NCBI RefSeq assembly: GCF_029017505.1
Contig: NZ_JAQGEI010000010.1
Location: 1 to 64,000, forward strand
DNA: 64,000 bases
Origin: Sedimenticola hydrogenitrophicus
Lineage (GTDB): Bacteria > Pseudomonadota > Gammaproteobacteria > Chromatiales > Chromatiaceae
Direction of reading: 5' to 3'
Each line of letters begins with the position of its first letter. Within the stretch, counting starts at the first letter, position 1. The translations under genes and the position numbers were made by a program. The notes under the pieces are model-generated. The model had not been told where the DNA came from and ran no database searches. It worked only from the letters and a program-made list of their open reading frames with translations. This document shows, one piece after another, positions 46,573 to 52,241 of this stretch.

Positions 46573-46673
46573 ACAGCGGGGTTGTGGGCGCCGATCCAAT
46601 GCGGTTAAATCAGTACAGACCCGTTGCGCCCCGTTTGCTCAGGGGCATAGAATCCAGCCTTGAATCCATAGCC

Positions 46674-47588
46674 ATGAATAGCAGAAAAGCCATCAAGATC
46701 GCCCTGATCCAGCACCCCTGCAGCAGCAACCGGGATGACAATCTGGCCCTTATCAGTGAGCGGATACGCCGGGCAGCCACGGCGGGTGGTCAGCTGGTGT
46801 TGCTGCAGGAGTTGCACAACACCCCCTACTTCTGCCAGACGGAAGAGACCCGGCTGTTTGATCTGGCGGAGCCAATTCCCGGCCCCTCGACCGAACTTTT
46901 CAGCGCCCTGGCCGCGCAACTGGGCGTGGTGATCGTCAGCTCGCTGTTCGAGAAGCGTGCCGCCGGCCTCTATCACAATACCGCGGTGGTGTTCGACAGC
47001 GACGGACGCCTGGCCGGACGCTATCGAAAGATGCATATCCCGGACGATCCCGGCTTCTACGAGAAATTCTACTTCACCCCCGGTGATCTGGGGTTCCGGC
47101 CGATCGATACCAGCCTCGGCAGATTGGGTGTGTTGGTGTGCTGGGATCAGTGGTACCCGGAGGCGGCCCGACTGATGGCCCTGGCCGGTGCCGAACTGCT
47201 GCTCTACCCCACCGCCATCGGCTGGGATCCGGGCGACAGCGAGGAGGAACAGAAGCGGCAACGCGACGCCTGGGTCACGGTGCAGCGGGGGCACGCTGTC
47301 GCCAACGGTCTGCCGGTGGCGGCCTGCAACCGGGTCGGCCATGAAGCGGACCCATCGGGCCACAGCCAGGGGATCCGCTTCTGGGGTAACTCGTTCATCT
47401 GTGGGCCCCAGGGCGAGCTGCTCGGGGAGGCGGGCGTCAACGAGGATATCCTGCTGGTGGATGTCGATCTGCGGCGCAGCGAGTCGGTGCGGCGCATCTG
47501 GCCTTTTCTCAGGGATCGCCGGATCGACAGCTTTGCCGATCTGCAGCGGCGCTATATAGACGAGATCATAGAAGAGATCGACGAGTAA
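46674..47588 (+). CDS. aguB: N-carbamoylputrescine amidase, nitrilase family
   Basis: Hydrolyses N-carbamoylputrescine to putrescine, CO2 and ammonia. The Glu-Lys-Cys triad is visible: E in LLQELHNTPYF, K in RKMHIPDDPGFYEKFYF and C in LVCWDQWYPEAARL. ATG 46674 gives 304 residues, normal for AguB. It lies about 100 bases after aguA and is probably co-transcribed. Confidence 0.94.
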   Translation: MNSRKAIKIALIQHPCSSNRDDNLALISERIRRAATAGGQLVLLQELHNTPYFCQTEETRLFDLAEPIPGPSTELFSALAAQLGVVIVSSLFEKRAAGLYHNTAVVFDSDGRLAGRYRKMHIPDDPGFYEKFYFTPGDLGFRPIDTSLGRLGVLVCWDQWYPEAARLMALAGAELLLYPTAIGWDPGDSEEEQKRQRDAWVTVQRGHAVANGLPVAACNRVGHEADPSGHSQGIRFWGNSFICGPQGELLGEAGVNEDILLVDVDLRRSESVRRIWPFLRDRRIDSFADLQRRYIDEIIEEIDE

Positions 47589-47600
47589 GTTACCTAGCCC

Positions 47601-47837
47601 CTACTCCGGGTCCTTGCCCTTGCCCAGGTCAAACGGCACCACCGTCGAGGTGGGGCGTTCATCCGCATAGTAGGGACGCTGTGCCGTAACGCCCGCCTCC
47701 TCACCCAGCTCTTTTTCCCGCGCCGTAATCAGTCCCAGGCAGAGCCTTACATCCTGAATCGTCTCATCGGTCAGGGGGTGCCGCATACCCGGCGGCGGCG
47801 TGGTGTCACGGATGACCGCGGTCAGCACCTTGCGCAT
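47601..47837 (-). CDS. Small uncharacterised partner of the phosphoribulokinase-like gene
   Basis: A 78-residue protein from ATG 47837 (MRKVLTAVIRDTTPPPGMR). The frame stays open upstream to the PRK-like gene, where an ATT at 47882 overlaps its TGA and sits five bases after GAGGAG. Use of that start would add 15 residues. No domain is recognised. The tight arrangement implies that it works with the PRK-like protein. Confidence 0.6.
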   Translation of the reverse strand: MRKVLTAVIRDTTPPPGMRHPLTDETIQDVRLCLGLITAREKELGEEAGVTAQRPYYADERPTSTVVPFDLGKGKDPE

Positions 47838-47881
47838 CGCCTCGAGTATCGCCCGGTCTTTGCTGTTGTCGGTAGTGATAA

Positions 47882-48760
47882 TCAGAACTCCTCTAGCTGA
47901 CGCCGCCGTTCCATCATCTCATGCACCAGGGGGTTCAACAACAGCTCCATGGCGAACTCCATCTTGCCGCCGGGCACCACCAGGGAGTTGCGCCGTGACA
48001 TGAAGGCACCCTCAATCCGTTTCAGCAATATGGAGAAGTCATGCTTCCTGGGTTCGCGGAAGCTGATCACCACCATGCTCTCGTCACTCCCCGGCACATC
48101 CCGGGCATCGAACGGGTTGGAGGTATCCACCAGGGGGATGCGCTGGAAGTTGATGTCGGTATTCGAAAACTGTGGGGTGATGTAATGGACATAGTCGTGC
48201 AGCCGGTGCTGGATGGCGGCGCGTACCGCATCCAGGGTGTAGCCCCGGTTCCTGATATCCGTATGAATCTTCTGAATCCACTCCAGATTGACAATGGGCG
48301 CGACGCCCAGAGTCAGATCCACATGCTGCAGTATATCGACACCGGGGCCGGCGAATGCGCCGTGCAGGCCCTGATAGACCAGCAGGTCCAGATCCGGCGG
48401 CAGCGACGTCCAGGGGGTAAAGGTACCGGCCTCCTGTTGGTGCTGTATCGCCTGTTCCTCGGTATGCAGGTAGTGTCTGTACTCGCCGGTGCCGTGGGAT
48501 GAGAACTCCCTGAACAGGGATTCCAGCAGGTCCAGCCGATTGCCCTCGGGGCTGAAGTGGCTGAGATAGCGGCCATCGGCACAGGCCTCTTCGACCTGCC
48601 GCGCCATCTCGTCCCGCGCATAGCGGTGAAATGCGCCGCCATCCACGATCAGGTGGCTGATCTTCTCACGCCAGGCAATATGGCTGAATACATCACTCAC
48701 CCGGTTCGAACCAGAGCCCGATGAACCGGTGATGACAATAATGGGATGTTTAGTAGACAT
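47882..48760 (-). CDS. Phosphoribulokinase paralogue lacking catalytic residues
   Basis: A full-length (292-residue) relative of proteobacterial class I phosphoribulokinase with conserved NLEWIQKIH, QFSNTDINFQRIPLVDTSNPF and VVPGGKMEFAM segments. Several residues needed for catalysis are changed: the P-loop reads GSSGSGSNRV instead of GSSGAGTxTV, position 42 is Gly instead of the catalytic Asp (VDGGAFHRY), the acidic residue of YEGLHG is Gln130, and the Arg after the K-I-H triplet is Thr167. H45, R49, K164 and R172 remain. It is probably not an active kinase; a regulatory or binding role is inferred. ATG 48760 is preferred. Confidence 0.88.
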   Translation of the reverse strand: MSTKHPIIVITGSSGSGSNRVSDVFSHIAWREKISHLIVDGGAFHRYARDEMARQVEEACADGRYLSHFSPEGNRLDLLESLFREFSSHGTGEYRHYLHTEEQAIQHQQEAGTFTPWTSLPPDLDLLVYQGLHGAFAGPGVDILQHVDLTLGVAPIVNLEWIQKIHTDIRNRGYTLDAVRAAIQHRLHDYVHYITPQFSNTDINFQRIPLVDTSNPFDARDVPGSDESMVVISFREPRKHDFSILLKRIEGAFMSRRNSLVVPGGKMEFAMELLLNPLVHEMMERRRQLEEF

Positions 48761-48886
48761 TGCGAAACCGTAATACACCACCGCGATTGATGCAATGCGC
48801 CATACATTCAATTTTTCTTATGCACCAGACCGCCACTACTTATGGATATCGCCCTGTTTTATAGATACTTTTCAGTTTGCGACCGA

Positions 48887-50341
48887 TTATTGAAGACGCG
48901 CCAGTGTGGCCACCAACAGGTCCCAGAACCGCTGCACCGAGGGGATATGCATGCACTCATCCGGGGAATGCGGATAGCGGATGGTGGGGCCAAAGGAGAT
49001 CATCTCGAGACCGGGATAGCGCCCGCCGATGATGCCGCACTCCAGGCCGGCGTGGATGGCGCCGATCTCGGCCGGGGTGTCAAAGATGTCCTGGTAGGCC
49101 TGGCGCATGGTCTGCAGCAGCGGCGAATGCGGATTGGGTTTCCAGCCGGGGTATTCCCCATCGATCACGGTTTCCGCACCGACCAGCCGAAACAGCGAGC
49201 GGTGAACCGCGCACAGCGCATCCCGGGCCGAGTCGATGGAGCTGCGGATCAGGCTTTTGATTTCGATGCGGCCGTCGCTCACTCGCACAATGGCCAGGTT
49301 GGTGGAGGTCTCCACCAGCCCGGGCATGCTGTCGCTCATGCGCAGCACCCCGTTGGGGCAGGCCATCAGGGCATCCAGCAGTTGTTGCTGCAGGCTCCCC
49401 GGCAGCCACTGGTCGGCGGTTGCATCCGCCTGCAGCTCCATCGCAAGATCAGGCTCCACCGCCGCGAGCTCCGATGCCATCGCCGCCCAGCGGGTCTCGA
49501 GCAGCCCTTTCAGGTCGGCCGCACGCGAGGCCGGCACATGGAACACACCGGTCGCCTCTCGCGGTATGGCATTGCGCATGTTGCCTCCGTTGAAGGCGCA
49601 CAGCCGGATAGCACATTCCGCCTCGGCAGCGGATAACAGTCGCGCCAGCAGCTTGTTGGCATTGCCCCTGCCCCGGTGGATATCCACCCCGGAGTGCCCC
49701 CCCTTGAGCCCGCTCAGTTTGAGCCGATAGCCGAGCCACCCGCTGGCGACGCGCTCGGCCGGGTAGGAGAGCGAGCTGGTGGCATTGGCGCCACCGGCAC
49801 AGCCGATACAGAGGACCCCCTCATCCTCCGAATCCATGTTCAGCAATATTTCCCCCTGGAGCAGATCGGGCCGGACACCGAATGCACCGGACATGCCGTC
49901 TTCTTCGTTACTGGTGAACAGTGCCTCAAGCGGGCCGTGCTTGAGTTGGCGCGACTCCAGCACGGCCAGGGTCGCCGCCACGCCGATGCCGTTATCCGCC
50001 CCCAGGGTAGTGCCGGTTGCCTTGACCCACTCCTGCTCAATGCGCACCCAAATCGGATCCCGGGTGAAATCGTGCAAGGTATCGGCATTGGCCTGCGGGA
50101 CCATATCGAGATGCCCTTGAAGAATCACGCCGGGTGCCGACTCCATGCCGGCCGAGGCCGGTTTTCTGATCAGGATATTGTCCGCCGGGTCCCTGATGGT
50201 CTGCAGTCCCAGGCGCTCACCCACCTGTATGACGTAGTCCTGTACCGCCGCCTCATGATGCGACGGTCTGGGTATTTGGGTCAGCTGGTAAAAATGTCTC
50301 CAGACGGGCTGAGGCAGGAGTTGTGAAATTGCATCATTCAT
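48887..50341 (-). CDS. pepD: Cytosol non-specific dipeptidase, M20 family (PepD type)
   Basis: A zinc aminoacyl-histidine dipeptidase. The metal-binding motifs are QGHLDMVPQ, GADNGIG, TSNEEDGMSG and LNMDSEDEG. From ATG 50341 it has 484 residues, typical of PepD. It breaks down dipeptides in the cytoplasm. It is divergent from the DUF364 gene, and their starts are about 150 bases apart. Confidence 0.94.
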   Translation of the reverse strand: MNDAISQLLPQPVWRHFYQLTQIPRPSHHEAAVQDYVIQVGERLGLQTIRDPADNILIRKPASAGMESAPGVILQGHLDMVPQANADTLHDFTRDPIWVRIEQEWVKATGTTLGADNGIGVAATLAVLESRQLKHGPLEALFTSNEEDGMSGAFGVRPDLLQGEILLNMDSEDEGVLCIGCAGGANATSSLSYPAERVASGWLGYRLKLSGLKGGHSGVDIHRGRGNANKLLARLLSAAEAECAIRLCAFNGGNMRNAIPREATGVFHVPASRAADLKGLLETRWAAMASELAAVEPDLAMELQADATADQWLPGSLQQQLLDALMACPNGVLRMSDSMPGLVETSTNLAIVRVSDGRIEIKSLIRSSIDSARDALCAVHRSLFRLVGAETVIDGEYPGWKPNPHSPLLQTMRQAYQDIFDTPAEIGAIHAGLECGIIGGRYPGLEMISFGPTIRYPHSPDECMHIPSVQRFWDLLVATLARLQ

Positions 50342-50492
50342 GGGAGACAACGATCCAAGGGATGGGCCAGGATTGGCGGGATTATGGTATCCCCCGACAT
50401 TCCCGGGGGCAATCGCCATACGCTCCAATTTCACCCCTCACGCACCGACTGGACCATCTATAGTTAAGAAAACCAATGCCGGGTCACACTCA

Positions 50493-51329
50493 ATGCCGTA
50501 TCTCTCCAACTATCGTCGACTGATCAAACGGATCGACAACGCCCTCCGGCTTCCGCCCATCGCCCGGGTATTGCTGCCGGTCGCCGATGTGGCCGAGGAT
50601 ATCAAGGATAATTTCGGTTTCGTGGTCCTGAGCGACGGCAGCACCGGCCCCTTTTATAGCTGCCTGGGCGACACCCTGGAATGGCTTCGCCAGAACGCGC
50701 ACCACTCCATCGCGGAATCGCCTTCCGAAATCGCCCGCGGGCTGGACGGAATCGACCTGCCGCGTAGCGCCCTGGCACTGGGAGCGTTCAATGCCCTCAG
50801 CCAGTACCTGATGAAGCGTGCCGGTTTTGATCCGACCACCGCCGGCAAGCCGGACGACGGCGACCGGCCCGAGGGTCGGATCGGAGTGGTGGGGTTCTTC
50901 AGACCCCTGGTTGAACGCTATCTGGCCCGGGGCACGGAGGTCATCGTGATCGAGCAGCAGCCGGAACGGGTACCACCGGAGTTGGGGCTGGAGCTGTTCA
51001 CCACACCACAGGCACTGGCCCGCTGCGACACCGTTCTGTGTACCGCGTCGACCCTGATCAACAACAGCATCGAGTCGATTGTCGAGGCGGCCGGCGACCC
51101 GGCGAAGATCCACCTGATCGGACCCAGCGCCAGCGGACTTCCCGATCTGCTGTTCGATCTGGGCATCCGCTCCAGCGGCGGGGTGATCATCGACCGGCCG
51201 CGCGATCTTGAACGCGCCATCGCCCAGGGTGGCTCCTGGGGCGATTGCGGACGCAAGTATCAGCTGGACCGGGAGTATTATCCGGGACTCGATTCCCTGC
51301 TGCGGACGGCCTGCCGAGAGGCCGTGTGA
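50493..51329 (+). CDS. DUF364 family protein
   Basis: A 278-residue protein with a C-terminal Rossmann-like DUF364 domain (VGFFRPLVERYLARGTEVIVIE; LIGPSASGLPDLLF), a family proposed to bind heavy metals. The N-terminal part (LPVADVAEDIKDNFGFVVLSDG) is also of that family. ATG 50493 is chosen; a longer frame upstream overlaps the divergent pepD start and is less likely. It is followed 110 bases later by a universal stress protein. Biochemical role unknown. Confidence 0.8.
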   Translation: MPYLSNYRRLIKRIDNALRLPPIARVLLPVADVAEDIKDNFGFVVLSDGSTGPFYSCLGDTLEWLRQNAHHSIAESPSEIARGLDGIDLPRSALALGAFNALSQYLMKRAGFDPTTAGKPDDGDRPEGRIGVVGFFRPLVERYLARGTEVIVIEQQPERVPPELGLELFTTPQALARCDTVLCTASTLINNSIESIVEAAGDPAKIHLIGPSASGLPDLLFDLGIRSSGGVIIDRPRDLERAIAQGGSWGDCGRKYQLDREYYPGLDSLLRTACREAV

Positions 51330-51440
51330 GCGGCGTTCGCACAGCCCGCCCGTCCACTGGCAACATGGCCGTCGCGGCGAGTGCGGTGGCCACGCGCCAG
51401 CCGTTGTCAGCCTCCCTTACACCAAACAGGTAACCGTACC

Positions 51441-52241
51441 ATGACGACCACGCAATCCGTCGGCTATCACAGTATCGTGGCCCTCTATTCGCCAACCGTG
51501 AGCGAACAACCGGCCGCCCTGCGGGCGACCAATGTCGCCAGCAAGCTCCACAGCCAGGTCACGTTGGTCCATATCACCCCGTCCGGCAGCGCTGTCGAAG
51601 CGCTGGCGGCGGCCATGGATCGGCTGCTGGCGGAGAATGCGGAGATCACGGCGGCTAAAAGTACCCAGGGGAATTTGCTGCAGCTCGCCCGCCTGGCAAA
51701 CGCGGTGAATGGCGACCTGGTGGTCCTGGACAATGTCGGGTACGCACAACTGCAGCCGCTGCTTCAGGCCGGCGATGAAACCATGCCCGAGCAGACCGAG
51801 TGCGACGTCCTGGTGGTGCACGCCAACCGCCCGCCCGATGACTACCGGCATATCGTGGTTGCCGCCGACCTCAATGACCAGGGGCTGATGACCATCTACA
51901 AGGCCGTGCGAATGGCCAAACGCTACAATGCCCGGTTGACCCTGCTGAACGTGGTGGACAATTTTACCGCGGGAAAGGATGAAGAGAGCGCGGCGAAAAA
52001 TCTCCGCATGCGGGGCCTGGAGGCCTTCACCTCGGTCATCGAGGGGCTGGAAGTGGAGCAAGAGGTGGTGGTGACTGCGGGGCCGGTCGATCAGGCGGTG
52101 GCCGACTACTCGGCCCGGCAGCAGGCCGGGCTGATTGTCATCGGATCGTACAAATTGGAAGGCCTCCACATCCTGCTGGGCGCCACCGCGAAGCGCGTGA
52201 TCGAAACCGCAAACTGCGATGTATTGGTGGTACACGAATAG
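51441..52241 (+). CDS. Tandem universal stress protein
   Basis: A 266-residue protein with two Usp domains (about 8-135 and 138-266), similar in layout to UspE. The second domain has the ATP-binding pattern GSYKLEGLHILLGATAKRV and the end DVLVVHE, while the first lacks it. It starts at ATG 51441. Members bind ATP or AMP and aid survival under stress. It probably stands in its own transcript after DUF364. Confidence 0.88.
   Translation: MTTTQSVGYHSIVALYSPTVSEQPAALRATNVASKLHSQVTLVHITPSGSAVEALAAAMDRLLAENAEITAAKSTQGNLLQLARLANAVNGDLVVLDNVGYAQLQPLLQAGDETMPEQTECDVLVVHANRPPDDYRHIVVAADLNDQGLMTIYKAVRMAKRYNARLTLLNVVDNFTAGKDEESAAKNLRMRGLEAFTSVIEGLEVEQEVVVTAGPVDQAVADYSARQQAGLIVIGSYKLEGLHILLGATAKRVIETANCDVLVVHE

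Follow-up and report, generated by a model that had tools for sequence, protein, structure and literature searches.

The locus and its conserved neighborhood

The window, i.e., the whole 64,000-nucleotide stretch of the Sedimenticola hydrogenitrophicus genome analysed here, carries on its minus strand a gene for a protein of the phosphoribulokinase (PRK) family, which we term the pseudo-PRK. Its reading frame opens with an ATG at 48760, has its last sense codon at 47885 and closes with a TGA at 47884-47882. The locus comprises the following features:

47882..48760, minus strand: pseudo-PRK coding sequence, 292 aa and the stop codon
48887..50434, minus strand: pepD (beta-Ala-His dipeptidase), which precedes the pseudo-PRK on its strand in every Sedimenticola locus, with a 126-bp spacer here
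48806..48822, minus strand: CATAAGAAAAATTGAAT, a near-invariant block in the spacer between pepD and the pseudo-PRK
47601..47879, minus strand: conserved small gene, 92 aa if its start is the ATC at 47879-47877
46584..47588, plus strand: aguB (N-carbamoylputrescine amidase), the convergent neighbor and conserved border of the locus

The order pepD, pseudo-PRK, small gene and convergent aguB is the same in eight of eight Sedimenticola. Within the spacer (48761-48886), CATAAGAAAAATTGAAT is near-invariant across the eight, with a second ATAAG 22 bp upstream; the block is not present in the cbb and nar loci examined, and a promoter search at the pseudo-PRK locus returned no sigma-70 or terminator-like match. 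On its other side, pepD is flanked in most Sedimenticola loci by a plus-strand gene of the DUF364 type (putative heavy-metal chelation; 50340-51329) and by a universal stress protein gene (51381-52241).

A full-length member of the PRK family

The pseudo-PRK exceeds the curated thresholds for the PRK family over its full length, scoring 412.8 bits with NCBIfam NF011997 (cut-off 362; residues 1-288) and 159.9 bits with Pfam PF00485 (cut-off 22). The nearest solved structure is that of the Rhodobacter sphaeroides PRK (PDB 1a7j; phmmer E 6e-87), which is also the best PDB match (TM 0.91) to the AlphaFold2 model of the protein (pLDDT 87.5). The pseudo-PRK is therefore a member of the PRK sequence and fold family, and we infer that it folds as a PRK. 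The family scores and the alignment to 1a7j bear out the initial annotation, which had described a full-length PRK paralogue with replaced catalytic residues. The residue calls made there, namely the P-loop GSSGSGSNRV (12-21), G42, Q130 and T167, are correct when re-read from the translation, and the last three align with positions 42, 131 and 168 of the R. sphaeroides enzyme. Likewise, H45, R49 and R172 (45, 49 and 173 in R. sphaeroides PRK) are kept, as had been claimed.

Clade-wide loss of catalytic residues

The substituted positions map to the following codons:

48704..48727, minus strand: degenerate P-loop, G12-N19 of GSSGSGSNRV (T18S, S19N)
48701-48703, minus strand: T20R codon of the P-loop
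48635..48637, minus strand: codon 42, where the catalytic base Asp42 has given way to Gly in the window protein and to Ser in most orthologues
48371..48373, minus strand: codon 130, Gln in place of Glu131
48260..48262, minus strand: codon 167, Thr in place of Arg168 (ATP binding)

In PRK, the Asp equivalent to residue 42 acts as the catalytic base (PMC9978339); ribulose-5-phosphate (Ru5P) is bound by His45 and Lys165, and ATP by Arg168 (PMC5241800). When the window protein and its nine orthologues, i.e., ten pseudo-PRKs, are aligned with 66 rows of canonical PRKs, all ten lack Asp42 (Gly or Ser instead), have Q or K for E131 and have T, V or N for R168, residues that are Asp, Glu and Arg in every canonical row. 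The P-loop, GSSG[AS]GT[ST][TS] in active PRKs, reads GSSGSGS[NWAYH][RK] in the ten: its glycines are kept and its Ser/Thr residues replaced, with T18 changed to S and T20 to R or K throughout and the Ser19 slot variously N, W, A, Y or H. This slot is the Mg-binding one in PRK. The same losses recur in ten independent assemblies, and chance or sequencing error is thus ruled out as their source.

At the same time, the Ru5P residues H45, R49, Y98, H100, K165 and R173 are invariant in all ten pseudo-PRKs, as are R31 and the GSSGSGS part of the loop. More broadly, 55 of the 68 positions that are strictly invariant in the 66 canonical PRKs (81%) are kept in all ten, whereas six (T18, F29, D42, E131, R168 and M188) are changed in every one of them. 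Four of these six (T18, D42, E131, R168) belong to the ATP-handling or catalytic set (Fisher p = 0.003; the set was the analyst's own choice, guided by the literature and background knowledge). The clade also has invariant residues of its own (A29, W30, D50, E51, N171 and E268). R234, an allosteric-site arginine, is lost in nine of the ten, which might disturb the usual oligomer interface.

From these residues, we deduce that the pseudo-PRK probably lacks PRK activity. The protein may still bind nucleotides, as its P-loop has not lost the glycines. An intact Ru5P site is what binding of that substrate would call for, yet its retention is not exceptional against an overall figure of 81% and does not amount to proof.

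Phyletic distribution, phylogeny and selection

A search of 194 genomes of the family recovered pseudo-PRK orthologues in all eight Sedimenticola genomes with the locus assembled, the window's own included, and in two other genera. The Sedimenticola orthologues are 79-98% identical to the window protein, and those of the other two genera 64-65%. The initial annotation had asked whether related genomes share the substitutions; nine others do. In a profile search, the scores of the ten pseudo-PRKs are 547-621 bits, while no other PRK of the order exceeds 421. A sample of 398 genomes from across the phylum yielded no further member of the clade, and the DNA pattern for Y[Q/K]GLHGA has just two other matches in 369 genomes of the class, neither of them a PRK. 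A ninth Sedimenticola, G095, has no pseudo-PRK; a gap in the assembly is a likelier cause than genuine loss, because its pepD runs off a contig end and its aguB is represented only by a 69-residue piece (contigs C42 and C81).

The pseudo-PRKs form one clade with support of 100/100 in two trees, on a long stem of 0.98-1.07 changes per site. In one tree, the nearest single row is a PRK homologue of Marinobacter koreensis (L065), with a weak join (92/69) that may reflect long-branch attraction; given this join and the long stem, any placement of the clade among the PRKs is tentative.

Within Sedimenticola, pairwise dN/dS of the pseudo-PRK is 0.03-0.11, and that of the canonical PRK from these genomes 0.015-0.05. 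Saturation affects many of the dS values; for two of the pairs least affected, the ratios are 0.071 and 0.076, where the canonical PRK has 0.018 and 0.038. The pseudo-PRK is thus constrained, at roughly twice the relative rate of the canonical PRK or more. Together with ten intact sequences in a single fully supported clade, these ratios uphold the earlier contention that the gene is intact and selected. Recent decay is ruled out by the ten intact sequences and purifying selection. A duplicate on its way to loss might be suspected from evolution about twice as fast as that of the canonical PRK; however, none of the ten genomes has a frameshift or internal stop, the dN/dS values are those of a constrained protein, and the gene is kept across three genera, with the exception in G095 probably stemming from its cut-short pepD and aguB. 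This explanation is already largely refuted, and we give it hardly any credence.

A long stem followed by constraint also fits a change of function, and one could envisage a neofunctionalized enzyme that has kept the ability to bind a phosphorylated sugar, perhaps along with a nucleotide, while its rebuilt active site catalyzes a different reaction. The invariance of GSSGSGS in all ten proteins, with a basic R or K fixed at position 20, the retention of K165 and D169, and the six clade-specific invariants would be in keeping with such an enzyme. However, neither D42 nor E131 has an acidic replacement (position 42 is Ser or Gly and position 131 is Gln or Lys), and the Mg-binding Ser19 slot varies freely, unlike in an active nucleotide site. 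Hence, we consider a new catalytic activity unlikely, if worth keeping in mind.

Active PRKs and RuBisCO in the same genome

The initial annotation had held that the lack of any other PRK gene in the genome would point to the pseudo-PRK as the working enzyme. This objection fails because the genome has two further PRKs, both with all catalytic residues intact. One lies about 5 kb from the Form II RuBisCO, the sole RuBisCO of the genome, and from a LysR-type gene that reads as cbbR. The other directly follows narI, beside narGHJI (L003/L084, G000:C7:88310-89158); such a PRK lies no more than about 3 kb from narI in all five Sedimenticola loci examined (L112-L115 for the others), and these nar-linked PRKs form their own long-stemmed clade with 100/100 support. 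It is possibly an isozyme for nitrate-respiring growth. The two carriers of the pseudo-PRK from other genera, G011 and G016, each have a separate canonical PRK. The pseudo-PRK locus itself is not linked to cbb genes.

These observations bear on whether the pseudo-PRK could be a weakly or conditionally active PRK. Its Ru5P residues, K165 and D169 are all kept and the score of the whole protein is above the PRK equivalog cut-off, as expected of such an enzyme. Against this, the catalytic base, E131, R168 and the P-loop Ser/Thr residues are gone in all ten proteins, and two PRKs with intact residues are at hand in the genome. We regard residual PRK activity as highly improbable.

A conserved small gene that appears coupled to the pseudo-PRK

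Directly downstream lies a conserved small gene that the initial annotation had missed. It is in the -1 frame relative to the pseudo-PRK and begins beside the stop codon of the latter, in a frame that is open from upstream of 47885. Two features mark its putative start:

47888..47892, minus strand: AGGAG, Shine-Dalgarno-like, inside the last pseudo-PRK codons, invariant in eight Sedimenticola
47877..47879, minus strand: ATC, proposed non-canonical start codon, invariant in eight of eight and 8 nt after the AGGAG

There is no ATG, GTG or TTG at the 5' end of the gene in any of the eight Sedimenticola, and the first ATG is codon 17 of the conserved frame. That the codons after the ATC are translated is shown by synonymous changes in them. 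The gene apparently starts at a rare AUC codon behind the invariant AGGAG, and its translation appears to be coupled to that of the pseudo-PRK. A -1 frameshift fusion of the two frames was put aside, as the stop codon lacks a conserved slippery sequence.

The small-protein family is present in 163 of the 194 family genomes, nearly always in single copy (homologues L119-L148), and has no convincing match in Pfam, NCBIfam or PHROGs. The protein is probably helical, with two helices in an AlphaFold2 model of low confidence (pLDDT 69.6). In other genera, the homologue starts with an ATG at nearly the same point, directly after pepD (L127, L128, L144). It appears, therefore, that the pseudo-PRK was inserted between pepD and the small gene, and that the latter has since relied on reinitiation, perhaps at AUC.

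The locus thus raises a further alternative, namely that the pseudo-PRK has a role outside the Calvin cycle together with its neighbors PepD and/or the coupled small protein. The identical gene order in all eight Sedimenticola and the apparent translational coupling speak for it; that translationally coupled pairs often encode subunits of one complex is reported in an earlier study (PMC10666635). On the other hand, the small gene follows pepD without an intervening PRK in the other genera noted above, and in G011 and G016 the pseudo-PRK and the small-gene homologue are on different contigs. These separations make the adjacency look like an insertion peculiar to Sedimenticola; being restricted to this genus, the link between the two genes is weak evidence for a shared function. 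We accordingly judge a function shared with the neighbors to be rather improbable.

A predicted regulatory pseudoenzyme

What marks the protein as a pseudoenzyme is the conjunction observed here: catalytic residues lost across a monophyletic clade, Ru5P residues retained, purifying selection, and intact PRK paralogues co-occurring in the same genome. We are confident that it is an old duplicate of PRK that has lost phosphoryl transfer and has been kept by selection. As to what it was kept for, we lean somewhat toward a regulatory role in which Ru5P or a similar sugar phosphate would be bound but not converted.

Such a protein might act in two ways. It would hold the sugar phosphate and enter mixed oligomers with an active PRK as a non-catalytic subunit, and these oligomers would set the response of the active PRK to Ru5P and effectors; alternatively, it could be a free-standing sugar-phosphate sensor. 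The R. sphaeroides PRK is an octamer (PMC9978339), and so mixed oligomers are physically possible. We tentatively put forward the role of a non-catalytic subunit as the most likely mode. In plant-type PRK, Ru5P binding follows that of ATP and is made possible by it (PMC9978339); hence, the pseudo-PRK might not bind Ru5P if it is unable to bind ATP. Moreover, its absence from the cbb cluster counts against a Calvin-cycle role, and the genomic context provides no tie to cbb genes. The full scenario, wherein Sedimenticola and its relatives control the Calvin cycle via a dead, Ru5P-sensing PRK subunit in mixed oligomers, with the small helical protein as a coupled partner in Sedimenticola, is accordingly a speculative one that we would not bet on as a whole.

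Relationship to known systems and implications

Bacterial-type PRK (CbbP), typified by the R. sphaeroides enzyme (1a7j), resembles the pseudo-PRK in its full-length fold, with about 50% identity, and shares with it all the Ru5P-binding residues and most other family-invariant residues. Unlike CbbP, the pseudo-PRKs have neither the catalytic base nor E131, R168 and the P-loop Ser/Thr; they also lie outside the cbb cluster and evolve faster. The PRK homologues of heterotrophs, of which E. coli PrkB is an example, are a second point of comparison: that of Marinobacter koreensis is, like the pseudo-PRK, a long-branched PRK paralogue with perhaps a non-Calvin-cycle role, but it keeps D42, E131, R168 and the P-loop Thr residues. 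The Form IV RuBisCO-like proteins, several of which have known enzymatic roles, show how the fold of a Calvin-cycle enzyme can be reused without the original reaction; they are a parallel only, as their fold is unrelated to that of the pseudo-PRK. CP12, known from cyanobacteria and plants, controls PRK by binding to it, and the pseudo-PRK would be another such protein, with the difference that CP12 is a small separate protein and the pseudo-PRK a PRK paralogue. A literature search, with subscription journals mostly outside its reach, found no PRK pseudoenzyme, pseudokinase or inactive paralogue. Familiar as the PRK family is, there thus seems to be no earlier report of a lineage within it that is conserved yet apparently dead.

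A practical corollary concerns annotation: standard models name the pseudo-PRK ‘phosphoribulokinase’ with a score above the equivalog cut-off, and genome-based counts of PRKs will consequently include a protein that is probably unable to make RuBP. PRK makes the substrate of RuBisCO. This product, RuBP, also activates CbbR, the activator of cbb transcription, in R. sphaeroides (PMC4806589), and an altered PRK output would for that reason have wide effects. If our reading is correct, carbon fixation in these autotrophs would have a new point of control in a selected, dead PRK and, should this protein indeed act in mixed oligomers, the enzyme itself would have furnished its own regulator.
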